Shown: positions 9,438 to 64,000 of the stretch, piece after piece
How positions within the stretch are numbered: the stretch's first letter is position 1
Layout: every line of letters starts with the position of its first letter
Assembly (NCBI GenBank): GCA_017506865.1
Contig: JAFCMP010000540.1
Location: 578,776 to 642,775 of the forward strand
DNA: 64,000 nucleotides
From: Tribonema minus
Taxonomy: Eukaryota > Sar > Xanthophyceae > Tribonematales > Tribonemataceae
Direction of reading: 5' to 3'
Made by a program: the position numbers and the translations under genes
The notes under the pieces: model-generated
The model's input: only the letters and a program-made list of their open reading frames with translations
Database searches by the model: none
What the model was told of the DNA's origin: nothing

Positions 9438-9475
<38 letters not shown>

Positions 9476-23746: not shown

Positions 23747-26700
23747 AGCGGTCCTCTCTGTTGGAGATCGTAGAGCTCCCGCGCTGCGTGCTCTCTCTCT
23801 CAATTTTCTTTTTTTTTCTCCTTTTTTTCGTGGCACGCCTGCCTTGCGGGGCCCGACGAAACGGTGTGTGTGTGCAAATCCAGACTGCGAGGTAGGGGTA
23901 AATGTGATACAACTGACTATCTGGCCCGACAGGTCTGACCAGATAGTGAGCATACCTTTGGTACTACTGTTTGAAAACTGCAGCATGGAGCATGAAATCC
24001 AGACGTCCGAAGCATTGCCTGCGGCTCACTTGCCGTGCAGTACATGTGGGCAGCTCGCCACTGGCCACTGCCGGGCTTGCCGAGCTGCGCGCACTCAGAG
24101 GTGGACCACACGCCCGCCATTGCCTCAACGAGAGGTAGGCTAGCATGCGTGCTTCGATTGTTGCAGCTGTGCAGGCTGCTATAGCTACTCCTTCGCATAA
24201 TTTGGTGTTCGAGTATGGGAGCAGCTGCAGTGATCGTGATGCCCAGATGGCATGCAATGATACCGATAACCATCATAACAACAGTGAGAACTCTACATAG
24301 TGCAGGACACGTGTTTGCAGGTTTCTGATCCTCACATCTGCTGGCACTGTCGTCATGTACATGCTTGAGGTTGCGAAGTGCACGCAATCACCTGCTGCTG
24401 CCGTGCCTGTCGATGTCAAGACTAAACCAATCATTCATCACCGTCATGTGTTTGCATACGTCGCAGTACCCTCCCGGCTGCCATGAGGTCGTGAGGGGCT
24501 TTGCAATGGTGGGAGACATGAGAGCATGTACATTGAAGTGAGTGCGCAATGCTGACCGATCGCCGTTTGCGAAGCGTTGAATTGTGACTTTTGGAGACAT
24601 ACATCAGCACTGCTGCTTATTCGTTGTTGCGAGCACGGAGACTGCCCCGGGCGTGCATGAGTCACCAGTTCATCAATACAAAAAATGTGTGAGCCAGATT
24701 GCCATCTGCGCATTCCCAAGTACCGCCTGTACGCGTGTACGCGTCAACACAGTGTGTATGCTGCTGTCCATCGGAGCTCCAGCTCAAACCTTGTATGTTT
24801 ATCAGCGAACTTCGACGTACAGTAGAAGTTGTGGCATGCTACAAAGCCATATGAGCACGGTCTGTACAGTGCTACGAGATTACACTCAGTGCTTCTATGC
24901 TGGGTTGCTGGGCTGGTGTGCAAACCATAGTTGACAAATGCTGGCGCAACTCACTAAAGTAGCTGTTGACATGTACTGTGACATAGCGCTAGCGCCTGTA
25001 GCGTTCCTACACATGGCATGCTGTCGCCCACTCAGCATTCCATTTTCCAGCTGATATCATGAGCAGCTTTCTGGAGTGCAGTGCAGATGCGCCAAGCCAT
25101 CGAGTGTCACCACCACCGAGCATAGTATCCATACATGCCTGTACAACACGGTGTACTGCATGCGTTTGATCAAGGGCACGCCGCCGCACTGCTGCACGTT
25201 GGTCACTCCCTGCGTGGTAAATGCTGAGCACTGGCAATGTGCACAGTGAGCACTGCCGTCAGTGCTCATGCACGCTGAGCGCTGCCGCTGCATGAGCGCT
25301 GAGCGCTGCCATGGCAAGCACGCTGAGCGCTGCCGTCATTGCATGCACGTTGAGCGCTGTCATCGCATGAACGTTGAGCGCTGCCATTGCATGATGCTGA
25401 GCGCTGCCTGCTGTTACATGATGCTGAGTGCTGGCATGACAAGCACGCTGAGCGATGCCATTGTATGTATGCTCAGCGCTGCTATCGCATGTGCGCTGAG
25501 CGCTGCCGTTGCATGCACGCTAAGTGATGCCATCGCATGCACGCTGAGCGCGTTCGTGATTCACAACCCCCGAGCATTGCTACTTCAAGAACGTCGAGCG
25601 ATGCACTACTTGATGAACACTGAGCACTGCTTCGAAAACGCGCTGACCGCAGCCATTGCGTGAACGCTGCGCGCCGTTGCTGCAGAGCGCTCGCCGCTCA
25701 GGACATCACGCACGTGGTGTGCCTGGCTGAGGCGGATCCAAGGGTGGGCGACAACGATGTGAAGAAGGTCAGTTGGCGCTGGCGTTTGGCAATGAATTCC
25801 AGTGTTCGTCTGACTGAAAATTGATAGCAGCCCATTAGGGGTTGAGTTGAAGTTGGGGCTAGCGCTTGAGTGGTCGCTCGCCGCAACCAAGGGTGAGCAC
25901 TGCCGCAATTGGATGCACCATTCCGACAGTAGGTATTGGCAGGTATGATGGTCCCTGTCGGTTGGGCTACTCAAACTTCAACCCAGGCCTCGAGTTGGAT
26001 TGAGGATCAAGGGGAAGGTCGAGCCGCTCTGTGCCGGCCGCTGCAGCGGCGCGGCAAGTGCAGCGGTGCGGCAGCAGCGAGGCAACTGCAGCGCCGCTGC
26101 CGTGCCGCCACTGCCGCCTCCGCTGGTATTGTAGCAGCAGCTTCTTCCTTGTAGAAGCTAGCTGCGAGCGTGGCACAGCGGTGCTGGCGACTGCCGCGTG
26201 AGCATAGATGAGCGCTGATGCTGAGCGTTGACACCTATCGCCAGCTGTAGACACGCGTCGCTGTGGCACGCTGTGCACGTACCTTGGTCAGTCTCTTTCA
26301 TTCACAGCATGAACTGCGTGCCGGCCATGTGGGGCATGTATGTATTCTTTGTTTACATGAAAGCAGTCACAGGCGCAGCACGGCGATCCACGTACGTGTT
26401 TTGCATGTTGTGCGTACATATGCCATTGCTCCAGTCACGCTGCTCAGATAGCACACCACCTCTCAAAATGTGCAGAGCCCATATTGCGCGCTTCATGAGC
26501 CTCCCCGCAAACTGTGCAGAGCCCGAAAATAGCGCGCTTTGTGAGCTATCCAGCCGCCTCCGCACGTTCAGCAAGCCGCTCTGCACATTCAGCACACCCA
26601 CATTCTCTCCCCCCCCCCTTGCGCCGTGCCCCCGTGTTTGCGCACGACAGGGGTGGAGCAGAATCTCCTCGCTGTTTGTGAGGGTATGCGAGGTGAGGCG

Positions 26701-29440: not shown

Positions 29441-31174
29441 TCACCGGCAAATGATGACGCAACCGCGCACATTGAACCTTGTGCAGCGCGTGCCTGTGAT
29501 GTCGACGTGCTGCAGCGCCGGCAGGTGACTTATGCTGTCCGGCAGCGCAGTGAGGGCCTCACAGTCGTGGACGACGAGTCTCCGCAGCGCCGCCAGCCGG
29601 CCGATGCCTTCCGGCAGAGCTGTGAGCCCGCTGCAATATTCGATATTAAGCTCCTCCAACGCCACCAGCTGGCCTATGCTTTCCGGCAGCGCGGTGAGCC
29701 CCCCGCACAGGGAAATACCAAGCGTCTTCAGCGCCGCCAGCTGGCTGATGCTGTCCGGCAGTGTGGTGAGCGATACCCCCTGGATGACAAGATCATTCAA
29801 TGTCGCCGTCTCGCCGATGCTTTCCGGTAGCGCAGTGAGCCCCTCGCAGTCATAGACTTTTAGCGTCCTCAGCGCCGCCAGCTGGCCGATGCTGTCCGGC
29901 AGCGCGGTGAGCCCCTGGCACTCATCTACTTTGAGCGTCCTCAGCGCCGCCAGCTGGCCAATGCTTTCCGGCAGAGCTGTGAGCCCGCTGCAATTTTCGA
30001 TATTAAGCCCCTCCAACGCCGCCAGCTGGCCGATGCCTTCCGGCAGCACTGTGAGAGCCTCGCATTCATTGACTGCGAGCGTCTTCAGCGCCGCCAGCTG
30101 GACGATGCTGTCTGGCAGCGCAGTGAGGGAATCACAACATCCGACTTCAAGCGTTACTAGTGCCGCCAGCTGGCCGATGCTGTCCGGCAGCACGGTGACC
30201 CCCCCGCTCCGGTAAATATCAAGTGTCTCCAGCGCCGTCAGCTGCCCGATGCTGTCCGGCAGTACGGTGAGCCCATTGCAAAACACTTGGAGTGTCCGCA
30301 GCGCCGCCAGCTGGCCGATGCTCTCCGGCAGCGCAGTGAGGGTCTCGGTCTCGCAGCTGACTTTGAGCATCCGCAGCGCCGCCAGCTGGCCTATGCTTTC
30401 CGGCAGAGCTGTGAGCCCGTTGCAATGTTCGATAAAAAGCACCTCCAACGCCGCCAGCTGGCCAATGCTTTCCGGCAGCGCAGTGAGGGCGCATATCTTG
30501 ACTGTGAGCATCTGCAGCGTTGCCAGCTGGCCTATGCTTTCCGGCAGCGCAGTGCGGGTGACTGTGAGCGTCTGCAGCGCCGCCAGCTGGCCTATGCTTT
30601 CCGGCAGAGCTGTGAGCCCGTTGCAATCTTCGATATTAAGCACCTCCAACGCCGCCAGCTGGCCTATGCTTTCCAGCAGCGCAGTGAGGGCGCATGTCTC
30701 GACTTTGAGCGTCCGCAGCGCCGCCAGCTGGCCTATGCTTTCCGGCAGAGCTGTGAGCCCGTTGCGATGTTCGATATTAAGCACATCCAACGCCGCCAGC
30801 TGGCCTATGCTTTCCGGCAGAGCTGTGAAGGAACACCCTCTGACTTTAAGCGTCTTTAGCGCCGCCAGCTGGCCTATGCTGTCCGGAATTGATTCAAGCA
30901 GATGTGTGTCGTCGTCCGCGAAGGAGCCAGACAACGCGAGACTGGTGACCTGTTTCACGGCCACAATGCGAGCTGCCACTTCTGCTGGGGGTTCCAGAAG
31001 TTTCAAGGTCAATCTGACCCGGTTTCTTGTCCTCAGAGCTTGACACAGTCCCCAGGCGGATTTGCACAGCATGTGCTGTTCGTCCAGGATGCACAACGCT
31101 TCTAGAACGATGTTGTCGGCGCCCTCCGTTTTCCTTGAAGCCTTATTGCTGTGCCTTTCTGGAGCCGTCGTCAT
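29441..31174 (-). CDS. Intronless leucine-rich-repeat protein
   Basis: A single 577-residue frame. After about 100 N-terminal residues without motif it consists of about 19 tandem LRRs of 23-24 residues with consensus LPESIGQLAALRTLKV, of the plant/Shoc2-like intracellular type. Such arrays form a curved protein-binding scaffold. There is no signal peptide or membrane segment, so a cytosolic location is likely. The repeats are very alike at the DNA level (blocks of GCCGCCAGCTGGCC), which implies recent expansion and allows unequal exchange. A few units are shortened or irregular (TVTRTALPESIG). It lacks introns, unlike most other genes here. The last codons lead into GTGAGC, so a 3' exon is possible. 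The partner is unknown. Confidence 0.85.
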   Translation of the reverse strand: MTTAPERHSNKASRKTEGADNIVLEALCILDEQHMLCKSAWGLCQALRTRNRVRLTLKLLEPPAEVAARIVAVKQVTSLALSGSFADDDTHLLESIPDSIGQLAALKTLKVRGCSFTALPESIGQLAALDVLNIEHRNGLTALPESIGQLAALRTLKVETCALTALLESIGQLAALEVLNIEDCNGLTALPESIGQLAALQTLTVTRTALPESIGQLATLQMLTVKICALTALPESIGQLAALEVLFIEHCNGLTALPESIGQLAALRMLKVSCETETLTALPESIGQLAALRTLQVFCNGLTVLPDSIGQLTALETLDIYRSGGVTVLPDSIGQLAALVTLEVGCCDSLTALPDSIVQLAALKTLAVNECEALTVLPEGIGQLAALEGLNIENCSGLTALPESIGQLAALRTLKVDECQGLTALPDSIGQLAALRTLKVYDCEGLTALPESIGETATLNDLVIQGVSLTTLPDSISQLAALKTLGISLCGGLTALPESIGQLVALEELNIEYCSGLTALPEGIGRLAALRRLVVHDCEALTALPDSISHLPALQHVDITGTRCTRFNVRGCVIICR

Positions 31175-49884: not shown

Positions 49885-50236
49885 GTCTTTGGTACTTTTT
49901 ATTAATTCTCGCTCAGGGCGCGAAAAAGCCCAGATGATTGGCATCTAGCTGTAAGGAATCTACATGTTGCATGGCAGTCTGAAAGTGTCGCAACGACAAC
50001 CACTCAAACGCCGCCGCCGCCAAATGGCATCTCGGGGTCCTCCCCTACGTCCTCCTCCATGTCTTTGGTACTTATTATTAATTCTCGCTCAGGGCGCGAA
50101 AAAGCCCAGATGATTGGCATCTAGCTGTAAGGAATCTACATGTCGTATGACAGTCTGAAAGTGTCGCAACGACAACCACTCAAACGCCGCCGCCGCCAAA
50201 TGGCATCTCGGGGTCCTCCCCTACGTCCTCCTCCAT
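49885..50236. repeat. Tandem 176-bp units of dispersed repeat A
   Basis: Two head-to-tail units (49885-50060 and 50061-50236), each starting GTCTTTGGTACTT, differ at only a few positions. Related copies lie at 27672-27850 and, shorter, at about 18977-19045. The shared core is ATTCTCGCTCAGGGCGCGAA. Confidence 0.85.
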
Positions 50237-50461: not shown

Positions 50462-50750
50462 TGTGGCAAGTTTGTGTCTTTGGTACTACTGAGCACTGAT
50501 CTCAGAGATTTAGTGTACACGTCTACGTTGTGATGATGGATGGGCCATACGCGCCAGATCACTCCCTTTGCAGGCAAGGAGTGGTGTGCTGCTCCAACTC
50601 AAAAACTTGTTCGTGAGCCGGCATTGTCATGCGCAGATAGTCTCAGAGAAGTGGCGCGGAGCGCGCAGCTGTTGTGACAAGTCAGGCAGTGGAGCAAAGT
50701 CATGTCACATGCTTGCAGGCAAAGTGTATGCAGCCTAGCTCATACCTTGC

Positions 50751-51163
50751 TGAAGCGGCTTACCTTGTGATGCTGTCATGAATGCAAACAAGCAAGCTGG
50801 AAGAGCAAAACAAGTAGACACGCTTCAGAGAACTCAAATGAAATGTTATGCGAAAGGAAACGCGATGCGCTTACCGGATATTTTATTCTGCTGCTGAGAG
50901 ACGGAAGGCTTGGGGCTGGACGATGGCTGGCACAGCAAGGTTCGGGCTTGCTGTTTGCAGGGGAGGTTCTGATGCTGTGCATACTACTTTGATGTGCCCT
51001 TTGGCATGTGACCCAACTAGTTGCACCTGCCTTCAACTAAGGTCAGGCCAGCTCTCAATCACATGTCAAGGTCTACACCGACTACACAGGTCTACTGAGA
51101 CCTGTGCCAACCTGTGAGGTGTAACTGCCTGTAACTGTCTGAATACACCCCCAAGCCGTATCA
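50751..51163 (-). repeat. 3' LTR of the retrotransposon
   Basis: A 413-bp direct repeat identical by eye to 62390-62802. It begins TGAAGCGGCT and ends CGTATCA in plus-strand reading. It would supply the polyadenylation signal of the element. Confidence 0.95.
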
Positions 51164-51165
51164 GA

Positions 51166-51177
51166 TCCCCCTTCTTC
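51166..51177 (-). other. Polypurine tract (PPT)
   Basis: On the element strand GAAGAAGGGGGA lies two bases from the 3' LTR, the expected site and composition for plus-strand DNA priming. Confidence 0.8.
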
Positions 51178-51404: not shown

Positions 51405-54400
51405 CTACTTCGCACTCTCCTCTGAGGATATACTGCGAGCGGCGAGTACGTTCCATGATGAGTATGGGCTGTCTTTTGGCGTGCGGTAGTCACCCGGACG
51501 TAAGCGCATACGCCTGACAGTCTTCTCACCGTCGAATAGTACATCAAACGTGAACTGCGACCTGGCGGGGTAAAACTCACCCAGGACGCCGCGGCTCCAG
51601 CCTGTTGGAAAGTGATACCAGATCACTTCACCCTCAAAGTCTGATCCGAAATCAGATGGCAGTTTGGGCAGCCTTACCAGCGAGATCTGCGGCTGAGCAG
51701 AATCTTGGGCTGAGCTTGCCTCAGAACTAGTTTGGGAAGATGGCAGACCTCGCGTGACCTGAGAGTTGGGACTTGCACTACTCGCGCTGTCCGGCGCGCT
51801 TTGCGCCTGCAACCTCTTGGCTTTGTCACGCACTGCCTCTGCCAACTGTATGGCAGACTTGACCTGTGTACGGGTCATCTGTTCCCACTCACCATCCTCA
51901 TATCTGATCCTCCAGTATGGTGACACAAAGTTCTTAACGGCCCCCCACACGTAAGTGATCGGGCCGCCCACTACCGTTCTGTGCTCCCTGACCAGCGCCG
52001 TGCCGATGGGATAGAGTTGCAGCGCGCTCTCTCGGCGCATGCCAGCATCCTCCTTAGGTGTGGGCCTGATGGCATATGCCGGCAACCTTCCTTCGTTGCG
52101 CAGCTCATAGAGCGCGTGAAAAGCGTCTAAGGTCCATGGCGTCACTTCTTGCAGCATGTCATCCTCTGGCACCCACGCATGTGACTTGCCATCTATGGAC
52201 TGCCATTTGTACTGCCACGAGCCATTGGGGCCCGCTTGGCGGTCCAGAACTCTGTATAACTTCTCACCATCTGCTAGCTCCTCCACTTGTCGGGGGCTCA
52301 GCATGGCGTGCACACCTGGCTCCAACATGGCACTAGGCCTCATGTGGAAGGGCTTCATGTTCTCAACATGAGCTGTGGTGTGTCTAACTCTTCTGCCCAT
52401 CATCCTGCAGATGAATGAGAGGCCTGATTCGCCTGTGCGAGCCTCGATCTGCCAAGGCCCCACATACCTGGCATCAAGAGCAGCCGACCTGTCTCTTTGC
52501 CTGGGTAGCCGTATCATGACATAGTCACCGACGGTGAACTTCACCGCGCGCTTAATAGCTTCATTGCGCTTGGTGATCTTCTGGGCGCGCACTTGCAGCG
52601 CCTTTGACACCACCTTGTCTGCAAGCTCAAGCATATCTAACTTGTGCTCAATCTCTTCGTGTAGGTCCAACTTCCTGCTGCCATCCTCGTGCATAAATGC
52701 ATCATGTGGCAGTGAAGCTTCCCGACCGTACACACAGAAAAAGGGTGTTAAACCTGTTTCGCCTCTGGGCGTTGTCCTCAGCACGAACTGCACAAGCTCT
52801 AAGCCTTCGTGCCAGTTGGTCTGCTGAGCGCTGACCCAGGACGCTAGTGCCTTCTTGGCACGACCATTTGCGTGTTCCGCCACACCATTGGTCTGGGGGT
52901 GGTAGGCACTGGTTTCTATGCGTTTCACTTTGAACGCTTTGCAAAGGTCTGTGACCACATTGCCTAGGAAGACCTTGCCCTTGTCAGAGCACAGCTCCTC
53001 CACTAGCGCGCCAATCTCAAGGAACACTGTCATGAGGTGCGGGGTAACATCGCGCGTTCCCTGGCCGTGCATGGCCGAGAGCCACACGAAGCCGGACCTT
53101 GCTTCCACTATGGTCAGGACATATCTGTGCCCTGCCGTGGACTGTATACCAGGCTCTGTGATATCTATGTTGAGCCGCTGCCACATACGCACGGGCTCAG
53201 CTAACCACTGTCTGTACTGAGTGGAGCTGGCGCGTTTGCGCTCGAGGCATGTCATGCAGCTCTGCACGTACGTTCGTATGTCCGCGCCCATACTAGGCCA
53301 GAAATACCTCTCGAATATACGCGTGTGCGTAGCGCCTATGCCGCAATGCATAGCGCTCGCGTCATCATGCCCTAGACGCATGACTAGGGTTCGTAGCACC
53401 ACTGGCACGACCCACTGCAACAACACCATACCTCTCTTGGGGTGGCTTGTTGAACTGTGCACTAAGAGGCCATCTTCCTCGATGGTATACTGCTCTCTCT
53501 GTGCTAAGACGTGAGCGGCTAGCTCCGCGCCTTCGGGTATGTCACCCTCAATGAGCATCTTGCTCACTGCTTGACAGAAACCGTCCGCTTTCTGAACTTC
53601 AAGAAATGCGGCTCTGCTGAGCATTGCTGGCGTGGCAGGCGAGTCTCCCTCGGCCACCCGTTTCAGCAACTGCACTACTTCTGGCCTTGGCAGCGTCTTC
53701 TTGCGCTTGCCTAAAACAGCTTCGCCATCCGGTGGCTCGTCTGCCTCATCTGCATCAGCAGCAGCTTCTACCTCTGGAATCTCTCCTTCTTCCAATGAGT
53801 CTGCCGCCGGCTGAGCCGTGGTGACGCTGCACTTGGCCCTCTTTGAGCTGATGCTGCGTCGCCTGTCGCATGCGATCTGCCTTAAGAGTCGCTGCGCTTG
53901 GGAATGCTCCCACGAGCCGGTGTACTTATTGACTGGCTCTGCATACGCTGTGTTGATCTCAACTTCATCAACCTCAGCTTCCTCCACCGTGGAGTCATCT
54001 AGCCTTCTGTCCAACAACTGTGTTAGCTCCACAGTCAGAGCGGCTAACCTAGCGGCCACTGCTCCTGATATTGCGACGGCCTCGTTGAACTTGAACGCTG
54101 GCCCGTAACGCGCATCCGCCGTGTACCCACGACAGCTGTTCACGTCGGCTACCTTGTGCGCTCTTGTGGCCTCGTCCGCGAAGCGCACACCTGACGGCGG
54201 CGCATCCATGCTTGGGACTGCGTCTGGCCATTGTTCATCTGCTGGCTCCGTAGAGCGCTCAGCATCTAATTCTGCCTGCTGCGGCAGTCTGGATGGGGCA
54301 TCAGCGTTGGCATTCCTTTTGCCAGGCCTGTGCTGAATAGTAACGTCATACTCTTGTATACGCATGGCCCACCTCAATAGCTTGCCGTTGTAGTCTTGCA

Positions 54401-57400
54401 ACGTCAACAGCCACCTGAGCGCTGCGGCATCTGTGACCACTGTAACAGGGTTACCCCAAATGTAAGGCCTGAAGTGGTTGAGCGCCAGCACTACTGCCAG
54501 ACACTCCACTGCCGTCGCTCCTAACTTCGCGTCAGGTTCAGAGTTCAGCTTGCTGAAGTAGCCAACGACTACTTCTCTGACCTCCTCGCCTTCAGCTATG
54601 CGGCGCCTGCCCGTGTGAGCATATGGCTGTCCCGCTGTTGCCCTTTCGACCTCACTCACAGGTCTGAATTGTGTAAGCACACCTGCCGTCGCCGTCTTGG
54701 AGGCGTCAGTGTACAATACGAAAGGCAAACTGAAATCTGGGTGCATCACTATGCGACTGTCGCACATGGCACTCTTCAGCCGCTTGAAAGCCCGCTCTTG
54801 CGCAGACCCCCAAACCATGACTGCTTTGTTCTTGGTCAGGGCTACTATAGGCTCTGATATCGCCCCAAAGTCGGGTACATATCGCCTGTAATAGTTAAAC
54901 ACTCCCATAACCACTTGTACCAACTGCTTGTCGGGTACCCCGCCTTTCAGTGGGGGGCTCATGTCAAGCATGGCCTTGACCTTGTCAGGGTCTGGTCTTG
55001 TTCCAGCGGCGCCAACTATATGGCCTAGGAACTTGACTTCAGCTTGAAATAGCTGACACTTTGGGCGAGATACACTCATGCCCGCCGCCCCTATGCGGCC
55101 AAGAACATCATCTAACTGCTCGATGTGCTCCTCGATGTCCGTGCCATACACCAACACGTCATCTATGTACACTAGCGCGTGGGAGCCTAAGGCATCTCCC
55201 AGCACTTGGTGCATCAATCTCGTGAACTGCGCTGGCAAGTTCACCAGCCCGAATGGCGCAACCTTGTAGTGCCACAACGAGCCGTCTGGGGCTCTGAAGG
55301 CCGTCTTGGCCTTAGCCGTCTTGGCCAGCGGGATCTGATGGTAACCCGCTGCCAGATCTAACGAAGATAAAATCCTCGCACCTTGCACAGCCCGCATCAT
55401 GTCATCCATGTTGCCTAAGCCATGACTATCACGCTTCGTGACCGCATTCAACTTCCTGAAGTCTATGCAGAAGCGGATCTTGTCGCCTTGAACCACTAGT
55501 ACTGGGTTGCTTGCCCATGCACTAGCTGATGGCTCAATCTGTTGGCGCTTTGCCGTCATCTGAATCTGTTTCATGATGTACTCGGCTTCTTTGAAAGCCC
55601 AATGGCGTGCCTTGTCCGCCACCGGCTCGGCCGTCTGAGTGTCAACATCAATCTCAAAATGCTGAGTGACTCGAGGGTTTTTAGGGTCCTTAGCAAAGAC
55701 ATTCCTGTGCTTTTTTAGCATGTCAAGTGCTTTTCTTTTTAACAGTACCCCATCTTTCCCCCTTCCTTGCAAATGAGGCGCAAGCCTGCCATCTTTCACA
55801 AGGATTTCCTCCAGCTCTGCATCTGTGCAGTTCTCTAGCTGGTCATTGTGGCGCTGGCTGAGGTCTGCCAGCCGTTGCACTTCTTGTGCAACCTCTTTGG
55901 CAGTCTTGCCTATGCTAGCAGCTAATTCTGCCACTAACTTAGCATTTTCAGAGTGCCTTTTGGCTGCTATTACTAGCAGTTTGGCTTCTAGAGCCTGCTG
56001 AGTAGCTGTCTGCACTTCTAGCAGATCATCAGCCTTAATTGGAGTCACTTTTCCCCAATACGTGTTGCGGCGCACGTAAACCGGGTACATTGAAGTGTTG
56101 CTCAATGTAGCGTATATCGTGCCGCTGGCATTTACAGTGAGAGCGGTGATATTTGCCTTAACACCTTTGCCTCTCATCATTTCTGTAGTCACTGTCTCTT
56201 CTGGTATGAGCAATGCCTCATAGGGCTGCACGCGCTTTGGCTTTGGTAGCAGCGTGAGTTCCACAATCGTCTCCGACGATGGTGCCAGTACAGTGTTATA
56301 TGCCATCCTAGCTGAGCACTGCTGAGGCTTGTCTGGTGCCTCAGTGCTCTCAGCGCTGCCATTGCCCTTGCAACTGGCTAGTGCTGCCGCACGCGCGTTC
56401 GCGTTGTCTGCGCGATTCTTGTCGTGCATGGGGCGTATGGCCACACCTTTTAGTCCCCCTGGGAAGAAGGCTGGGCTACCGCCGTGATACGAGATGACTG
56501 AGCCATGCGGGGCAAAGAAATCCGTACCTAAGAGCACGTCCATGGGTGCGTTCACCACATAGAACTTGTGCAAGAACATCTTGTTCTTAAACCGCAGCCA
56601 TGCATTGACCACACCACTGATCTGCAGCGACGTCTTGCCGTCTGCCAAGAGGATCTCAGTGTAGTCACCTTGCTGAGGTGTACATACATAGCTGTTGGGG
56701 AGCTTGTCTGCAATGCGCTTGCCCATGATGGTTACGGTCGCACCGCAGTCTACCATGGCGCGCACATAGAGTTCTTTGGGCGTCTGAGAGTTGCTTTGTA
56801 CGCGTAACGACGCGGACACAAACATCTGCCCTGGAGGTACAACACCGGCTACTGGGCGTATGTACTCCACTGGAGCCTCCGACTTGGAGCGCTCTACCGA
56901 GCTAGGCTCAGGGGACCCTACTGCAAGGTCTACATGAGGTAACTTGACTGGTTCCCTCGGTTTTGTGATCTCTTCTGTGAGATTCTTAATTGTCTCTGCC
57001 ACACTCACTGGTGGGGCTGTGTCTAACTTGCTGACACCTGGCACATGGTCTAATATGCCTAGAGACTGAGCATCAAGGCCAGCGCGCCGGAGCGCTGCCT
57101 TCAACTCACCTGGGGCAAGGCGCGGGTCTGTACCGCCGCCGAGCTTCTTGCGTGCCGCTGCGGCCGCAATGGGTGGAGCACTGATTTCTGTGTCAATGTC
57201 CATGTCGTCTGCGCTACTGCAAACGCTCATAACTGACTGTGAGTCCCACTCAGAGTCAGACCCTGAGTCAGAGTCATCGACTTCCACGATGTCAGCCATG
57301 CCGGGCTGCACCACAGCCAAGTCTACCTCTGGCTCTTCCCATGCACTGCGCATCGGAATTATGGGTACCTCTGCATACCCTGCATCATGCGCCTTTGCAT

Positions 57401-60400
57401 GTATGCTACGCGCCACTGCTGCTGAGCAGTGTGCACTTGACGTGGGCGCTGCGTGTACCGCGGTAGCGGCCTGCACCAGCGAACCACTCTGACCAGCCAA
57501 CCAAGACGGGGGCGGGCAGTCAACTGAATGCCTCAACGTAGAGTCTGACCTACGCGGCAAACGTACCTGTTGTTCTGGCAGTGTGCACAGGCCCGAGGCC
57601 TCAATTGCCACGAACAAGTGAAATGCCATCTCTGGGATGAACAAGTCTGCAATGTAACGCCGTACATCACTACTGCATGCACTCGCCGGTAATTCATAAT
57701 AATACGTCATGAGCACTGCCATTTCCGCAAGCGACAGCAAGCGGGCAGATGCCACTGGACCAGCGTCTTTTGCATGTGCAACATAACTCGCAGTGGGCCT
57801 ACCAGGCAGTCTGCGCACTGGGCTAGGCAACAAGCCATCAGCATCCAAAACACCAGGGTGCTGAGCACTGCGTGGTTGCAAGAAGAATGTGCGTTCGGGG
57901 CAGCGCAAGCGAGAGCGAACAGATGTGGGTCTGCTGTGTAAACGCTTGGTATTTATTACCGCACCGAACCTCTGGAGTGCCTCACGTGAGGCCACCCCTG
58001 CTGGTACTATGACAATGTACACTCTCTGCCTCCTGCAAGGTACTTCAAACTCAGAAGCCTTTAACTTGGCAATGTACAGCATGTAACCAGCAGCCTTAAG
58101 AATGCGCACTGCGCGTGCAAACGCGCGTGACACTAGCACTCCGGGCACATTCTCGTACAACACCACTTGAAGCTTGGCTCGCACGATGAGCCGTGCGGCA
58201 TGAACCGTGCACTCGGCAGCTTCGCCCTCGACCCTCTTGCCCTCTGCCGAAAAATCTGTGCAGGGCGGGGAGATGGTGGTGATGTCAGGTTTCTCGTCAA
58301 GAAGACGTGCAACAACCTTCGCATCAGTCATGCATGCAGTCATTGTGGGCACTTCTGGATGAACTTCATACAGAGCCTCAATTGCCTTGACATTCTTGTC
58401 AACTGCAAGCACTGTGCGTGTTACAAAACCTGCTCTAGAGGTCAACTTACCCCCAGCTATGGCGCCTCCTAGCGCCCCACAGCAGATAGACGCGTGTTTG
58501 ATAACTCTGGGTGGTGGCTCTGGCCCACCCTCAATTGCCGCCATCTGCGCGCGCAAAGAGACATCGTAAACAGCGTCAGTGGCATGCTCAGCTACCTGTG
58601 CTGAACGTGCATCTGCTCTAACTGCACCAGGCAATTCACTGATTGCTGATGCTGAACTTGCAGCAGGCAAGTCACTTCCTACCAAGGCAGCAGACAACTG
58701 CAAGTGTGATTCACCTTGGCGGTGCTTTTCTGCCATCCTCTTTCGGTGCGCAATGCACTGAGGGCAGGTAGTCTTGTGCCGCATAAGTGTGTCCCAGTCT
58801 CCCTGGTTCACTCTGCAGCCAAGACACTTGAAGTTGCTCTGGGGCTTGGCTCCGCCGCCGCCATTATCGCCTGCAGAGCTAGCCTTGCCCTGCGGCGCGC
58901 GGTCGCTGACTCCAAGCTGGCGACGCTCGTTAGCGCTCAGCCCCGCCAACACAGCGCGAACAGCCGAAAGCTTATTCTTCTTTTTATAGCGATGGTCGTT
59001 ACTGACCACGCTCCACCCATCCTTGGCAGGGCGCTTGCCTGTGTCAGAGTAGGGGGGGGTTGAGATGTGTGCCGCGGCCATTGCAGACACAACATTTCGA
59101 GTCTCGCGCTCGTCAAAAGGCGCTGCCTGCCACTTCTGCTGGGCAGTTGCCACGACCTTGGGAAAAGCGGTGTTCTTTAGATCCCAGGTCTCATACATGC
59201 CGTTTACTTCTTGACGGCAGCATAATGGCAGTTCATGAACGAACTTCATACAAACAATTTGCTGGTTGTCCGCGCAGCCGGCGTCGTGCGCGGCTGCAAC
59301 TACCTCCCTGCCCCACACTTCGGGGCTGGTACCGGAGGTACGCGTGAGTTCATGATACTTTTGAAGTGCTATTTGCCTGGCAGATGTGCTATCGTACGCT
59401 GCCGTAAGGCATTGCACCATCTGCTCATAAGACAAATCACTAAACGCACGAGTTTCTAGCATTCCCGTGCGCTCATTGGTGACTGCGCTGGTCAGATCAG
59501 CGTACTGACTCTTGGTCAGACTCTGCAACAGCGCTTCTGAGTAGGCCGACTTGGGCACGCCACGCGTGTCGCAGCTACGCTCAAAAGCTCTAATGGAAGC
59601 TTCAAGCCTGCCTACTTGCGTTACAATGACGACGCCAGTGCCGCCGAAACCCCTCAAGTCAACTTTGGGTTTCCGCGCCGTCATGGCAACTGAGGAGTAC
59701 GAGGGTTCTACTGCCCCCGCAGTCCTAATGCTCTCACCTAGAGCCGATGCGCTGGTGGCTACGCCGGCCACTGCGCCATCTTCACGCGGACTCGCAGCTG
59801 CGCCGGCTGCGTCGTCGTCCGACGTGTCGGAGTGCCCGTCAGTGTTGAGGAACGGGTGCGTCACCAGGCTGCGCGGGTAAGTGTCCGCAGCTAGGCGCGC
59901 CTCCTCGGTGACCAGAGGCGTGTTCTCGAACTCCCTTAGCATTCGCCAGAGTTCCGCCTCCTCACCGTCGCCTGTGCCGAAGGCGAAGCGATGCCAACTA
60001 TTGGACCGCTTACGGTGTTTACCTATGGTCAGCAGCTCGCCGAACTGGCTAGCTTTGAAGTCATGACCACGTTTTTCCAGAAGTGCAACATTATGCTTGC
60101 GCACCTCTTCGGCCTGCTCCGCAGCGAACGTCCGCGCCATCGGCAGCAGTGAGTTCTTCACCATGTTCTTGCTCTCACTAGGAGCTCTGGTGACGCGAAG
60201 CTGGAGCTCGCCAAGGCGTTCGTAAAGGGCACGCTCGTGAATTTCGGCGAACGTTGCAGCCGTTTTGGCGGCCTTGGCAGCTCGCTGATGTGCCTCGACG
60301 CGAGCTTCGATGCCCTCACGCCACTGGTCATAAGCCTCATCTGTGCCCTCAGGATCAAAGGGCACACCACCCTCATCACCAGATGACTCAGAAGACTCGA

Positions 60401-61403
60401 GCAGTTGCCTAACTGCCCTCCGTCGCTCTGCCGCTTGTTGCTCAACTGGCTTTCGCGGTATGACGGGCGCGCTACGTGGCACAACTGGCGCACTTTGCAC
60501 GACTGGCACGCTACGTGGCACAACTGGCACACGCCGCGCCTTACCACTTGCACCCCGACGCGGCTGCGTCACAGGCGATTTATCTGAGGCTTCAGGGGCC
60601 CTCGCTGGTGCAGTATAGTATGTGGGAGCCACTAGCCTAGCTGATGGCTTGGAGCTCTGAGGCGTCGGAGCCGCCGGTGCTACTTCAGGCGCCGCAACTG
60701 GGACCCGTGCACCGCGCGTAACCGACGTCTTGGCCGGCTGACTGCGCGCGACCTTAGGTGGGGCCACCGCGGGCGCAACCAGTGCTGCAACTGGCACTGT
60801 GGACTTTGCAGGTGCTGGCGCCGCAGACTTCGCGGGCGCTGCCGGCACAGCTGGCGCGGCTACCGGCACAACTGGCGCGGTTGTTGCAGCTGCACGCGGT
60901 GTCTTGCGTGGGCTTTTCGTTGGTGCGAGTTTTTTCTCAACAGCTGCACGTGCAAAAGCTTCTTCGCCTTCTGCTACCTGGGCTTCGCTAAGCATAATGC
61001 CCATTGCTGCAAGCTGTTCTCTTTTCTGCCTCAAACGTAACTGCCTTGCCACTATGGCTTCGGCTTCTGAGCCGCCACCGCCGGGCTCGTCGCTGGACTC
61101 AGCGAAATTACGTATAAAAGGAGGTGCGGCACCAGTGACTACTGATTCTGTGGACCGTACCGAGGCAGACGTGTCGGGCGCGCTGGCACCGACCTGGCTG
61201 GGTTGTGCGGACGCTGCCGCGGGCCGGGGAGGGGGGCGTGACGGCTTGTCACCCGAGCTTGGTGCGGGGCGCGTAGCGGAGCGCTGACCGCCCTTGTTGC
61301 TCTTAGCAGCAGTGCTGCCAGCAGGCCTAGCACCGCCACTAACACCTCCGCTGCGGCTTGACCCACTCGTTGGCTTCTTGGAGCCATGGTCAGTCTTGAC
61401 CAT
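51405..61403 (-). CDS. Gag-methyltransferase-Pol polyprotein (3332 aa)
   Basis: One uninterrupted frame. Residues 1 to about 850: Gag-like, with a Pro/Ala-rich basic N terminus. About 856-882: Cys/His cluster (CLGC...H...CPQC), not the usual CCHC knuckle. About 968-1268: C5-cytosine methyltransferase with motif I-like SICCGALGG, SPPC with catalytic Cys1048, ENVPG (Glu1084), CRRQRVY (Gln1126) and motif IX-like RLLSLAEMAVL; motif X is divergent (ADLFIPEMAF). About 1552: aspartic protease VDCGAT. About 1930-2150: reverse transcriptase with YIDD at 2079-2082. About 2233: RNase H TDAS. About 2679-2718: HHCC zinc site. Asp2747, Asp2807 and Glu2843: DD35E integrase core. About 2978-3010: GPY/F-like. 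About 3048-3083: chromodomain-like (YRVLDRQ...PEDD). About 3152-3182 and 3255-3300: Tudor-like strands. All key catalytic residues are present. Processing into separate proteins is assumed. Confidence 0.95.
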   Translation of the reverse strand: MVKTDHGSKKPTSGSSRSGGVSGGARPAGSTAAKSNKGGQRSATRPAPSSGDKPSRPPPRPAAASAQPSQVGASAPDTSASVRSTESVVTGAAPPFIRNFAESSDEPGGGGSEAEAIVARQLRLRQKREQLAAMGIMLSEAQVAEGEEAFARAAVEKKLAPTKSPRKTPRAAATTAPVVPVAAPAVPAAPAKSAAPAPAKSTVPVAALVAPAVAPPKVARSQPAKTSVTRGARVPVAAPEVAPAAPTPQSSKPSARLVAPTYYTAPARAPEASDKSPVTQPRRGASGKARRVPVVPRSVPVVQSAPVVPRSAPVIPRKPVEQQAAERRRAVRQLLESSESSGDEGGVPFDPEGTDEAYDQWREGIEARVEAHQRAAKAAKTAATFAEIHERALYERLGELQLRVTRAPSESKNMVKNSLLPMARTFAAEQAEEVRKHNVALLEKRGHDFKASQFGELLTIGKHRKRSNSWHRFAFGTGDGEEAELWRMLREFENTPLVTEEARLAADTYPRSLVTHPFLNTDGHSDTSDDDAAGAAASPREDGAVAGVATSASALGESIRTAGAVEPSYSSVAMTARKPKVDLRGFGGTGVVIVTQVGRLEASIRAFERSCDTRGVPKSAYSEALLQSLTKSQYADLTSAVTNERTGMLETRAFSDLSYEQMVQCLTAAYDSTSARQIALQKYHELTRTSGTSPEVWGREVVAAAHDAGCADNQQIVCMKFVHELPLCCRQEVNGMYETWDLKNTAFPKVVATAQQKWQAAPFDERETRNVVSAMAAAHISTPPYSDTGKRPAKDGWSVVSNDHRYKKKNKLSAVRAVLAGLSANERRQLGVSDRAPQGKASSAGDNGGGGAKPQSNFKCLGCRVNQGDWDTLMRHKTTCPQCIAHRKRMAEKHRQGESHLQLSAALVGSDLPAASSASAISELPGAVRADARSAQVAEHATDAVYDVSLRAQMAAIEGGPEPPPRVIKHASICCGALGGAIAGGKLTSRAGFVTRTVLAVDKNVKAIEALYEVHPEVPTMTACMTDAKVVARLLDEKPDITTISPPCTDFSAEGKRVEGEAAECTVHAARLIVRAKLQVVLYENVPGVLVSRAFARAVRILKAAGYMLYIAKLKASEFEVPCRRQRVYIVIVPAGVASREALQRFGAVINTKRLHSRPTSVRSRLRCPERTFFLQPRSAQHPGVLDADGLLPSPVRRLPGRPTASYVAHAKDAGPVASARLLSLAEMAVLMTYYYELPASACSSDVRRYIADLFIPEMAFHLFVAIEASGLCTLPEQQVRLPRRSDSTLRHSVDCPPPSWLAGQSGSLVQAATAVHAAPTSSAHCSAAVARSIHAKAHDAGYAEVPIIPMRSAWEEPEVDLAVVQPGMADIVEVDDSDSGSDSEWDSQSVMSVCSSADDMDIDTEISAPPIAAAAARKKLGGGTDPRLAPGELKAALRRAGLDAQSLGILDHVPGVSKLDTAPPVSVAETIKNLTEEITKPREPVKLPHVDLAVGSPEPSSVERSKSEAPVEYIRPVAGVVPPGQMFVSASLRVQSNSQTPKELYVRAMVDCGATVTIMGKRIADKLPNSYVCTPQQGDYTEILLADGKTSLQISGVVNAWLRFKNKMFLHKFYVVNAPMDVLLGTDFFAPHGSVISYHGGSPAFFPGGLKGVAIRPMHDKNRADNANARAAALASCKGNGSAESTEAPDKPQQCSARMAYNTVLAPSSETIVELTLLPKPKRVQPYEALLIPEETVTTEMMRGKGVKANITALTVNASGTIYATLSNTSMYPVYVRRNTYWGKVTPIKADDLLEVQTATQQALEAKLLVIAAKRHSENAKLVAELAASIGKTAKEVAQEVQRLADLSQRHNDQLENCTDAELEEILVKDGRLAPHLQGRGKDGVLLKRKALDMLKKHRNVFAKDPKNPRVTQHFEIDVDTQTAEPVADKARHWAFKEAEYIMKQIQMTAKRQQIEPSASAWASNPVLVVQGDKIRFCIDFRKLNAVTKRDSHGLGNMDDMMRAVQGARILSSLDLAAGYHQIPLAKTAKAKTAFRAPDGSLWHYKVAPFGLVNLPAQFTRLMHQVLGDALGSHALVYIDDVLVYGTDIEEHIEQLDDVLGRIGAAGMSVSRPKCQLFQAEVKFLGHIVGAAGTRPDPDKVKAMLDMSPPLKGGVPDKQLVQVVMGVFNYYRRYVPDFGAISEPIVALTKNKAVMVWGSAQERAFKRLKSAMCDSRIVMHPDFSLPFVLYTDASKTATAGVLTQFRPVSEVERATAGQPYAHTGRRRIAEGEEVREVVVGYFSKLNSEPDAKLGATAVECLAVVLALNHFRPYIWGNPVTVVTDAAALRWLLTLQDYNGKLLRWAMRIQEYDVTIQHRPGKRNANADAPSRLPQQAELDAERSTEPADEQWPDAVPSMDAPPSGVRFADEATRAHKVADVNSCRGYTADARYGPAFKFNEAVAISGAVAARLAALTVELTQLLDRRLDDSTVEEAEVDEVEINTAYAEPVNKYTGSWEHSQAQRLLRQIACDRRRSISSKRAKCSVTTAQPAADSLEEGEIPEVEAAADADEADEPPDGEAVLGKRKKTLPRPEVVQLLKRVAEGDSPATPAMLSRAAFLEVQKADGFCQAVSKMLIEGDIPEGAELAAHVLAQREQYTIEEDGLLVHSSTSHPKRGMVLLQWVVPVVLRTLVMRLGHDDASAMHCGIGATHTRIFERYFWPSMGADIRTYVQSCMTCLERKRASSTQYRQWLAEPVRMWQRLNIDITEPGIQSTAGHRYVLTIVEARSGFVWLSAMHGQGTRDVTPHLMTVFLEIGALVEELCSDKGKVFLGNVVTDLCKAFKVKRIETSAYHPQTNGVAEHANGRAKKALASWVSAQQTNWHEGLELVQFVLRTTPRGETGLTPFFCVYGREASLPHDAFMHEDGSRKLDLHEEIEHKLDMLELADKVVSKALQVRAQKITKRNEAIKRAVKFTVGDYVMIRLPRQRDRSAALDARYVGPWQIEARTGESGLSFICRMMGRRVRHTTAHVENMKPFHMRPSAMLEPGVHAMLSPRQVEELADGEKLYRVLDRQAGPNGSWQYKWQSIDGKSHAWVPEDDMLQEVTPWTLDAFHALYELRNEGRLPAYAIRPTPKEDAGMRRESALQLYPIGTALVREHRTVVGGPITYVWGAVKNFVSPYWRIRYEDGEWEQMTRTQVKSAIQLAEAVRDKAKRLQAQSAPDSASSASPNSQVTRGLPSSQTSSEASSAQDSAQPQISLVRLPKLPSDFGSDFEGEVIWYHFPTGWSRGVLGEFYPARSQFTFDVLFDGEKTVRRMRLRPGDYRTPKDSPYSSWNVLAARSISSEESAK

Positions 61404-62389
61404 TTATGGTGTATCCTGCACACGATTCACGCGCATGAAGCTGAGTGCGACGACAAAACCATGATTTTAAATTGTCAGCGCACGAGCCGTCTATGCCCCG
61501 CACGCCTCTGCACGAGGTCTGATGCTACTAGGGCACTCTGAACTGCAAGCCAGCCAGTTTGACATAGCAGTTGTACAGATCGACCGCGTTGTCAATTCTG
61601 CAACACAATTGCGGCCGTACAATCATGAAGCAAAATTGCATCGCTTTGCTCTCAAGCTAGACTCCTCTCCCCCTTCTTTGCAAAAAGCTAGTCATATCAG
61701 CTTTAGAGCAAATTACTAAGGAAGAGCATGCGGTAGGGTTTTTATTCTAGTCATAGGCAACCGTTACAGCCAGAAAAGTGGCAGCGCATGCCCCTTTGTG
61801 CGTTTATTCTCGAGACTTCTCGAGTGCAACCACTTAACACTGTCTATGACAAGTCACTACCGTTTCTGTGACTTCTGATACACAAGCTATCACGTGTCCC
61901 CCCTAAAGGATCTCCGCGCGTTCTCCGGGAGACTCTGGTGCGTTCGTGACGTGATAGTGTACGGCGCGCAAGCTGGTGTACACAGCGCGCTACCGCACGG
62001 GTCTACCCTCGATGTCCTATATGGGTCCACGTGACCACGTTCATCAACCACAGATGAGCCGCAGAATAAGGCCAGCTAAATGAAGTTGCATGTTCATTGC
62101 TGCTCAGACCCGTGCAGCACGCACTGCGTCGTTGACATTAAGGGGGCGGGTCACGACGTAGCGGTGCACCACTACGCCGCCCCGTCATAAGCGTTCTAGT
62201 GCAGGAACCTAGCGTGATTAACGTTTAACTCGCTTCCCACGGCTGTTCTTTACGTATTGCTTTACGTAATCTGGGTCCTCGAAAGGCTTTGACACGATTC
62301 GAGCAGTGATACATTGAACAGCGATCACCACGCTGCTGCCCTTGCGGGCGGGGTTAGCACGAGGTAAGGACTGTCTTCGGGTGCCAAAT
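61404..62389 (-). other. Untranslated leader of the retrotransposon
   Basis: About 970 bases between PBS and the Gag start contain no long frame on the element strand, except a short ORF that begins inside the 5' LTR (62460-62218). It would hold packaging signals. At its right edge the LTR carries an AAG/GTAAGC donor-like site near 62402-62407. Confidence 0.6.
62371..62386 (-). other. Primer binding site (PBS)
   Basis: Three bases inside the 5' LTR the element strand reads TGGCACCCGAAGACAG. It starts with TGG, the complement of a tRNA 3' CCA. I cannot tell which tRNA without the host tRNA set. Confidence 0.75.
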
Positions 62390-62802
62390 TGAAGCGGCTT
62401 ACCTTGTGATGCTGTCATGAATGCAAACAAGCAAGCTGGAAGAGCAAAACAAGTAGACACGCTTCAGAGAACTCAAATGAAATGTTATGCGAAAGGAAAC
62501 GCGATGCGCTTACCGGATATTTTATTCTGCTGCTGAGAGACGGAAGGCTTGGGGCTGGACGATGGCTGGCACAGCAAGGTTCGGGCTTGCTGTTTGCAGG
62601 GGAGGTTCTGATGCTGTGCATACTACTTTGATGTGCCCTTTGGCATGTGACCCAACTAGTTGCACCTGCCTTCAACTAAGGTCAGGCCAGCTCTCAATCA
62701 CATGTCAAGGTCTACACCGACTACACAGGTCTACTGAGACCTGTGCCAACCTGTGAGGTGTAACTGCCTGTAACTGTCTGAATACACCCCCAAGCCGTAT
62801 CA
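62390..62802 (-). repeat. 5' LTR of the retrotransposon
   Basis: A 413-bp copy identical to the 3' LTR. It should carry the element promoter. TGTGCAT- and TTTTATT-like A/T-rich spots exist but no TATA box is clear enough to call. Confidence 0.95.
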
Positions 62803-63166
62803 TTGCGAGCGTCACGAATGCTCCAATCAAAGATAGCCATGCTGCTGTTGGGGATGCGGATGGACGCAAAATGGCAAGCACTACGATTGGTCTGACAGTC
62901 AGTCAGCCTGGACTCTGGACGAAGCGCTCGAAGGGCGCACCGTTGCAGCTACATACACCAGAGACGTCGACACATTCAGCTGAGGAGAGTGTTGGAGATT
63001 AGGGTTAGGGTTATTTACATTTTCTAAAAGTGAGTGAACTCTCAAAGTTCGCCCGACGAATTCAGCGTGATTTTGAGCGACCCTCCAGAGACCACAACGT
63101 ATATCCTTTTGCATGAGGTGAGACCAGAGGCACTGTTAGCCTGCTGCCGTAGAGTCCTATTGCGTC
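62803..63166. other. 5' flank of the phosphatase gene
   Basis: It has the TTGC target duplication at its left edge and a short ATTAGGGTTAGGGTTA tract at 62998-63013. No other frame of note. The retrotransposon inserted about 360 bp upstream of the phosphatase start codon and points away from it. Confidence 0.5.
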
Positions 63167-64000
63167 ATGCCTCCCGTGGAGCAGCCGGAGGGGCCCATGG
63201 AGACAGCTGCAGCAGCGCCGAAGGAAGCTACTGCCCAAAGTGCCTCGACCGCAGCAGCGCCTGCAGGCCCGACGCTCAGCGACTACGAGGCCCTGAAGAG
63301 GGAGAATGCGGCGCTGCGCAGCGAGCTAACTCGCCTGCAGGAGGGCACCAAGCGCAAGCACAAGGTGGTTAAGACCACACTGGGCTCGAAGATGTCCCAC
63401 CACGTCGTAAGCCATCAGGGCAAAATCAGCCGTCGACACATGCGAGGGACGGCGAGCAGCATGGCGTCCGCGGAGATACTGGCGGGCCTGTTCACTCCCC
63501 GAGAAACAGTACCCGAGAGGCTGCTGGAGCGGCTAGATGACCCCTCCTCTCATGTGGCGTACTTCAGGGGCAAGCAATTTGCCCTCGACCTGATGTCTCT
63601 ATGCGAGCAAGGCCAGGAGCTCTTCGAGAAGGAGTCGCGGTGCCTGCACATCCAGTCCCCCTGTCACGTCTTCGGCGACATCCACGGCAATCTCGACGAC
63701 CTCCACTTCTTCGGGGAGAACGTCTGGTCCAAGGGCATACGCCTCACCCCAGGGCGCCTCCTCTTCCTAGGTGACTATGTCGACAGAGGCATGTTCTCAC
63801 TGGAGTGCGTGGCGTACCTGCTCGCCATGAAAGTGCTGGCGCCGGCAAAGGTGTTTCTGCTGCGCGGTAATCACGAGCTCAGGGACGTCAACTCGTGGGA
63901 GGACTATTACGGGGAGGGCTCGTTCCTCACGCAATGCAAGGACCGATTCGGAGCGGAGAGGGGAGCCTATTTGTGGGAGGTGGTGAACCAGCTTTTTGAC
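63167..64000 (+). CDS. PPP-family Ser/Thr protein phosphatase, N-terminal 278 residues
   Basis: An open frame from ATG at 63167 to the window end without an intron. Residues about 1-65 are Ala/Glu-rich with a leucine-zipper-like helix ([20 protein letters not shown]), absent from PP1/PP2A catalytic subunits. Then follows a PPP catalytic domain with the metal-binding signatures GDIHGN (about 170), GDYVDRG (about 202) and RGNHE (about 233). It removes phosphate from Ser/Thr residues using two metal ions. Between RGNHE and the window end the sequence ([18 protein letters not shown]) is unlike canonical PP1 (NRIYGFYDECKRRY), so this is a divergent protist branch. The last metal ligands and the C terminus lie outside. 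The first Met fits, since only short upstream frames precede it. Confidence 0.92.

Follow-up and report, generated by a model that had tools for sequence, protein, structure and literature searches.

A Ty3/gypsy retrotransposon of Tribonema minus carrying a predicted, bacterial-like C5-cytosine methyltransferase ahead of its protease

A 64,000-nt stretch of contig JAFCMP010000540.1 of Tribonema minus (assembly GCA_017506865.1, positions 578,776 to 642,775), hereafter the window, contains an open reading frame in which a C5-cytosine methyltransferase lies inside a retrotransposon polyprotein, raising the questions of where the domain came from, whether it could still be an enzyme and what it would do for the element. 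We propose, at a probability of roughly 0.55, that this is a recent, intact Ty3/gypsy element whose ancestor captured a bacterial-type C5-methyltransferase, that the domain is probably still catalytic, and that it methylates the element's own cDNA.

The element is a Ty3/gypsy LTR retrotransposon on the minus strand, the class that a sequence-only reading of this DNA had assigned to it and that its LTRs, target-site duplication, Ty3-type reverse transcriptase and integrase matches bear out. Its 5′ LTR (62390..62802), which starts with TG and ends with CA, and its 3′ LTR (50751..51163) are 413-bp direct repeats with 100% identity, and both ends are flanked by the duplicated target site TTGC, as read on the plus strand (62803..62806 and 50747..50750). 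A TGG sequence beginning 3 nt past the 5′ LTR, TGGCACCCGAAG (62375..62386, minus strand), is the putative primer-binding site, and the purine-rich tract GAAGAAGGGGGATC (51164..51177, minus strand), which adjoins the 3′ LTR, is the putative polypurine tract. Given the identical LTRs and the TTGC duplication, together with the Ty3-type reverse transcriptase and the integrase, the element apparently inserted recently and is young and complete-looking, without visible damage. A translated search found no further copies in the 64-kb window. Just past the 3′ end of the element lie two tandem 176-bp units that are 98% alike (49885-50236).

Between the LTRs runs one continuous minus-strand frame of 3332 residues, from 61403 down to 51405, whose sole stop is its end; the remaining five frames over 51405-61403 contain 82-195 stops each. 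The methyltransferase is thus in frame and uninterrupted within the polyprotein, as had been claimed. Along the frame follow a Gag-like region with a Cys/His cluster, the C5-methyltransferase, protease, reverse transcriptase, RNase H and integrase. The Gag-like N-terminal region (residues 1-883, 58755..61403) matched none of the Pfam Gag families and is so named from its position and the Cys/His cluster that closes it (residues 860-883, 58755-58826); the proposed placement between Gag and protease is supported as one between this Gag-like region and the protease. The aspartic protease (56514..56750) extends from DCGA at residue 1552 through LLGTDFF, its motifs being present although PF13975 matched weakly (24.6 bits, under the cut-off of 28.2). 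Reverse transcriptase and RNase H (54288..55604), with YIDD at residues 2079-2082, matched PF00078 and PF17917 and aligned with the solved Ty3 reverse transcriptase (4ol8) at E 7.1e-60; among viral contigs, no relative of the reverse transcriptase was confirmed, either among 3 candidate stretches for the single sequence or among 29 for a two-row alignment including Ty3. The integrase (52509..53417) matched PFV integrase (2.1e-19), the Ty3 polyprotein (4.4e-18), PF17921 (26.1 bits, cut-off 25.5) and, under its cut-off of 32.6, PF00665 (27.3 bits). Farther downstream, residues 3048-3099 (52107..52262) form a possible chromodomain-like stretch with weak matches to CDYL2 chromodomain chains (E 0.35-0.59; 2mj8, E 0.35), and Pfam Chromo gave no match in the C-terminal stretch of the polyprotein; a chromodomain there would point to the chromovirus branch. 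That C-terminus (51408-52529) also gave two matches below cut-off, to the Tudor-like PF21743 (E 0.012) and the Tf2-1 SH3-like PF24626 (E 0.026).

Elsewhere in the window, a Myb protein with three repeats is encoded by a single open frame (14703-16298; PF00249 in three stretches), a 577-residue ORF consists of LTALPESIGQLAAL-type leucine-rich repeats (29441-31174; LRR_14, 1.1e-81), and a calcineurin-like phosphatase ORF (63167-64000; PF00149) extends beyond the window end. Pfam searches of 20 other ORFs at 16.7-48.6 kb returned no family for 19 of them, and the ORF at 25250-25660 had a single weak match (E 0.0085, 16.8 bits, under the cut-off of 24). The genes around the element indicate a eukaryote, and a search for RNA genes found none.

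The C5-cytosine methyltransferase domain occupies residues 967-1275 (57579..58505, minus strand), an assignment supported by PF00145, by alignment with bacterial relatives and by the predicted fold. PF00145, the profile proposed for checking the domain, matched residues ~973-1132 with 64.3 bits (1.6e-17) against a gathering score of 22, spanning only positions 6-160 of its 324; the claim of a full-length enzyme rests on the alignment with bacterial relatives, which continues across the target-recognition region as far as motifs IX and X. TIGR00675 (dcm) scored 44.8 bits, under its cut-off of 100.65, and two PHROG methyltransferase families matched at 5e-22 and 5.9e-22. Both central motifs named by the sequence-only reading were found where it had put them: motif IV SPPC at residues 1045-1048 (58260..58271), with the catalytic Cys1048 and the next Gln changed to Thr, and motif VI ENVPG beginning at Glu1084 (58140..58154). 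The QRV that it had also listed does lie at residues 1126-1128 (58020-58028), within the motif VIII region PCRRQRV (residues 1122-1128, 58020..58040), but Gln1126, which is flanked by the two retained arginines R1125 and R1127, is not the motif VIII glutamine; that position, a Gln in 68 of 68 relatives, is Cys1123 here. Motif I, CCGALGG (residues 974-980, 58464..58484), is altered relative to FxGCGG. Beyond the target-recognition region (residues 1160-1217, 57753..57926), identified by alignment to relatives, motifs IX and X (residues 1218-1262, 57618..57752) carry ADLFI-P in place of GNAVP, with A1252 and D1253 replacing the Gly-Asn of motif X.

From which source might the domain derive? A tblastn search at E 0.01 matched 141 phage and 118 plasmid records with identities below 60%. 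At least 423 of 593 candidate stretches from bacterial and archaeal genomes matched, the best 80 all bearing bacterial titles, as did 169 of 312 stretches from viral contigs, the best 80 again being retained; identity over the best segments among these two sets of 80 was 24-40%. Searched as a single sequence, the domain yielded no methyltransferase relatives in viral contigs, the one pattern-matching stretch not being confirmed. Within these prokaryote, plasmid and virus collections its nearest relatives appear to be HindV-type methyltransferases of bacteria, plasmids and phages; the collections do not include eukaryotic genomes, and eukaryotic relatives are therefore not shown to be absent. 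The HindV-type enzymes of plasmid pEC34B (L006), a fecal phage scaffold (L001) and a Rhizobium plasmid (L005) align with the domain in both motifs and target-recognition region at 27-28% identity. They differ from it in being free-standing ORFs that retain both the motif VIII Gln and the GNAVP of motif X, which are altered here, and the pEC34B gene adjoins a HindVP restriction endonuclease, whereas the domain sits inside a polyprotein. Over 56 columns of the target-recognition region, the BLOSUM score against HindV-type enzymes stood 8.8 SD above 2000 shuffles, a generous figure because the shuffles were not realigned.

Comparison with solved chains pointed the same way. The domain alone matched 17 chains within E 10, all of them bacterial C5-methyltransferases or Dnmt2, led by 3g7u (1.2e-4); bacterial 3g7u and 8yf3 outscored Dnmt2, whose best value was 0.017 for the S. 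pombe protein, and HhaI was about level with Dnmt2. None of the solved DNMT1, DNMT3 and DNMT5 chains fell within E 10. An alignment profile consisting mainly of bacterial rows (A2, defined below) retrieved HaeIII first (1.7e-47), followed, among others, by 3g7u, DNMT1 and HhaI, Dnmt2, chromomethylase and DIM-2, and far lower by chain 7r76 (1.6e-4; labelled Rad8, which we take to be Cryptococcus DNMT5) and DNMT3A (0.19). The domain thus seems closer to bacterial restriction-modification enzymes than to the known eukaryotic families in the comparison. Since it matched no solved DNMT3 chain, it is unlike the Dnmt3 of published retroelements as judged through those chains, and its capture looks separate from theirs. 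The earlier suggestion of an independent capture is supported to that extent, but a donor clade did not emerge from the phylogeny.

For that phylogeny, 166 loci were reduced to 165 with an ORF match, to 137 after removal of L001-L006, L038 and lengths outside 270-440 aa, and to 101 after removal of sequences more than 80% alike; the tree held 107 rows, namely these 101, five of six reference rows (L002 omitted) and the domain. It did not place the domain within the HindV-type clade and singled out no bacterial donor clade: the domain sits outside an 80-row HindV-type group (support 96/84 for those 80 rows) on a branch of 5.41, in a tree that carries warnings for long branch, composition and unsettled bootstrap. 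That the captured gene was instead an orphan DNMT of eukaryotes, such as one of the SymbioLINE-Dnmt type or of another protist family, with the bacterial likeness reflecting an old common origin, is a serious if minority possibility, and one compatible with the other readings: the very long branch outside the HindV-type group fits it, and the tree contained no eukaryotic orphan DNMTs. It is countered by the alignment with HindV-type enzymes, which extends through the target-recognition region, and by the lack of any solved DNMT1, DNMT3 or DNMT5 chain among the matches of the domain alone. More tentatively, the donor may have been a bacterium, phage or giant virus whose sequence-specific restriction-modification-type methyltransferase, captured independently of the Dnmt3 cases, would methylate the element's cDNA at chosen sites before integration; we hold this more specific proposal to be somewhat doubtful.

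Whether the domain could still act as an enzyme was addressed by comparing it with its relatives column by column. Alignment A2 contains the domain and 68 of the first 75 of the 101 sequences (L076, L103, L108, L109, L110, L111 and L119 omitted), and 77 of its columns are conserved in at least 90% of the 68 relatives. The domain retains 40 of these 77, including Pro1046, Pro1047, Cys1048, Glu1084, Asn1085, Val1086, Arg1125, Arg1127, Arg1198, Tyr1207 and Asp1213, and differs at 37, among them Phe to Cys974, Gly to Leu978, Asp to Cys1024, Gln to Thr1049, Gln to Cys1123 and Asn to Asp1253. Retention by region was 24 of 44 highly conserved columns for motifs I-VIII, 11 of 19 for the target-recognition part (residues 1136-1217) and 5 of 14 for motifs IX-X, the poorest-conserved part of the domain. 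In columns conserved in less than 40% of relatives, by comparison, 11 of 84 residues were kept (13%, versus 52% in the class of at least 90%); the relatives were picked by similarity to the domain, which biases toward conserved columns being kept. Because keeping falls with column conservation, the pattern suggests constraint at conserved positions and not neutral decay, and this gradient fits selection for a working fold.

The losses nevertheless raise the alternative that the methyltransferase fold, its catalysis weakened or lost, has been retained as a Gag-side binder of DNA or RNA, perhaps still flipping bases. The motif I Phe, motif VIII Gln and motif X Gly-Asn are gone from columns that are 93-100% conserved in the 68 relatives, several of the substituted positions are ones that we take, from HhaI, to surround AdoMet, so that the enzyme could be impaired, and the domain adjoins the Gag-side Cys/His cluster; the meagre retention in motifs IX-X agrees with such a role. 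The retention of Cys1048, Glu1084, R1125, R1127 and 11 of 19 target-recognition columns, however, exceeds what binding would need, and we consider a mere binder rather unlikely. These losses weaken the case for activity, not that for descent from C5-cytosine methyltransferases. On balance, we regard the domain as a predicted enzyme whose active site is intact and whose cofactor pocket is unusual and diverged.

Structure prediction was consistent with this assignment. An AlphaFold2 model built with the 69-row alignment reached a pLDDT of 82.1 and a pTM of 0.83, whereas the prediction for a slightly longer stretch without an alignment was unusable (39.6 and 0.31). Among 249 PDB matches to the model within E 0.001, the 50 listed were all C5-cytosine methyltransferases or Dnmt2, one of them being a C5-carboxymethyltransferase, with TM values for Dnmt2 of up to 0.68 by target; the top viral match was a siphovirus methyltransferase (TM 0.72 by query). 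The domain can thus be confidently modelled as a C5-methyltransferase fold, and since bacterial and viral alignment rows steer the model, this supports compatibility with the fold and not activity.

The presence of Dnmt2 among both the fold matches and the 17 solved chains, together with the Gag-side location, also bears on the idea that the domain acts on RNA in the manner of Dnmt2, its substrate being the element's genomic RNA or a primer tRNA; RNA methylation was suggested for SymbioLINE-Dnmt by the authors of the 2018 study, in the available passages of that paper (PMC5890265). Such a substrate would be improbable, given that the relatives resemble DNA methyltransferases, one of them adjoining a HindVP restriction endonuclease, that the target-recognition region is alignable, and that two bacterial chains score above Dnmt2 with HhaI roughly equal to it.

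An assembly chimera or a chance fusion with a bacterial contaminant gene is very improbable: nothing was found in its favour, the domain is in frame across the whole ORF, its codon use falls within the range of the rest, the searched collections gave no close match to it (24-40% over best segments; below 60% in phages and plasmids), and the element has identical LTRs and a target duplication. Chance as an explanation was rejected, given the length of the ORF and the profile score. The codon-use figure was 0.297 for the domain and 0.234-0.413 across 35 overlapping windows of the ORF, and thus does not clearly mark the domain as newly inserted foreign sequence; GC3 was 0.52 in the domain, 0.53 in the linker after it and 0.60-0.63 from the protease to the C-terminus.

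If the element's DNA is methylated at CG, its dinucleotide composition may carry a trace. Under a null that fixes both the protein and its codon use, the ORF contained 638 CG dinucleotides against 752 expected (z -10.7), and TG and CA were above expectation (z 8.3 and 13.6); CG was also low in the domain (49 vs 63, z -4.1) and, to a lesser degree, in the Gag-like part (235 vs 251, z -2.8). The four comparison ORFs of the window (8216-10825, 14703-16298, 29441-31174 and 63167-63997) had CG z values of -1.4 (Myb), -1.3 (LRR), +1.5 (polyQ) and -2.2 (PPP), while CA exceeded expectation in each of the four and TG in two. NCG made up 0.24 of NCN codons in the element ORF versus 0.37-0.58 in these four, and the median CpG observed/expected ratio in 1-kb segments was 0.77 for the element (n = 11) versus 0.89 (n = 50; p 0.034). 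By part, the ratio was 1.06 in the 5′ UTR, which is not depleted, 0.47 in the short LTR and 0.59 in the 3′ UTR. Ten sequence contexts were checked for CpG depletion at particular sites, which might hint at the target, and gave no single clear site: GCGC was not depleted (observed/expected 1.27 in the element and likewise high, 1.17, in nearby ORFs), ACGT and CCGA were depleted in nearby ORFs too, and non-CG triplets such as GGA were likewise depleted in the element. The modest CpG depletion is therefore a lead, consistent with the element being methylated at CG, whether by its own enzyme or by the host; host methylation of transposons would give an identical trace.

Taking these observations together, a function for the methyltransferase in the element is plausible, and our preferred reading, that it methylates the element's own cDNA, could operate as follows. 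In an ancestor, a complete restriction-modification-like C5-cytosine methyltransferase would have joined the ORF, behind the Gag-like region and ahead of the protease. It would now be made together with Gag-Pol as one precursor, then either be released by the element's protease or stay as a Gag-side domain, and be co-packaged with reverse transcriptase into the particle. There it could methylate cytosines of the element cDNA before or at integration, probably at CG-containing sites. The likely gain would be that the cDNA passes for methylated host DNA, or that the new copy is shielded or marked.

Precedents for methyltransferases in retrotransposons, which the sequence-only reading had cited from dinoflagellates and a charophyte, do exist, and one is closer than it implied: the charophyte element, too, is of the Gypsy LTR class and carries a Dnmt3. 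As described in the available passages of the 2018 paper (PMC5890265), retrotransposons of dinoflagellates and charophytes carry Dnmt3 when they are DIRS or Gypsy elements and an orphan DNMT when they are LINEs, with the methyltransferase domains under purifying selection; DIRS-borne enzymes methylated CG in yeast, and no activity was detected for the Gypsy- and LINE-borne ones, a result the authors call inconclusive. Passing as host DNA and protection from editing were the roles they proposed. KnitGypsy-Dnmt3 of Klebsormidium nitens resembles the Tribonema element in being an LTR element of the Gypsy type whose polyprotein includes a C5-cytosine methyltransferase. There, however, the enzyme is a Dnmt3 in the Pol polyprotein ORF and the repeats have a DIRS-like arrangement according to the Fig. 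4 legend, whereas here the domain is not DNMT3-like by comparison with solved chains, precedes the protease and is accompanied by LTRs that are ordinary direct repeats (PMC5890265). SymbioDIRS-Dnmt3 and SymbioLINE-Dnmt of Symbiodinium are likewise retrotransposons with a C5 methyltransferase, in frame or in a separate ORF, the SymbioLINE-Dnmts being CpG-depleted; they belong to the DIRS and LINE classes with Dnmt3 or an orphan DNMT, in contrast to the Ty3/gypsy element described here (PMC5890265). Orchid Ty3/Gypsy elements, as portrayed in passages of PMC9289625, also combine a single Gag-Pol ORF with an acquired nucleic-acid-modifying enzyme, but theirs is an ALKBH-type m6A RNA demethylase in a separate ORF, whereas the C5-methyltransferase here is in the Gag-Pol ORF. 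A passage of PMC12344493 labels the earlier LTR element Copia; in the 2018 paper it is Gypsy.

Titles and opening abstract lines of the literature, in which subscription journals are thinly covered, named no Ty3/gypsy element with a non-Dnmt3 C5-methyltransferase, and the literature passages at hand named no Ty3/gypsy case besides those of PMC5890265. A bacterial-type C5 methyltransferase before a Ty3/gypsy protease did not appear in the available passages of PMC5890265, PMC6338049, PMC9998398, PMC12344493, PMC9289625, PMC10449503, PMC11453091 or PMC11347835. Against this partial literature, the apparent novelty lies in the enzyme type and in its placement before the protease, Ty3/gypsy elements with Dnmt3 being known already (PMC5890265).

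If our reading is correct, this bacterial-type case would show that the methyltransferase trait of retrotransposons comes from different sources, and it would strengthen the idea that cDNA methylation benefits retroelements and is not an accident of one enzyme family. A young, intact element with a compact methyltransferase domain would provide material for testing that idea.
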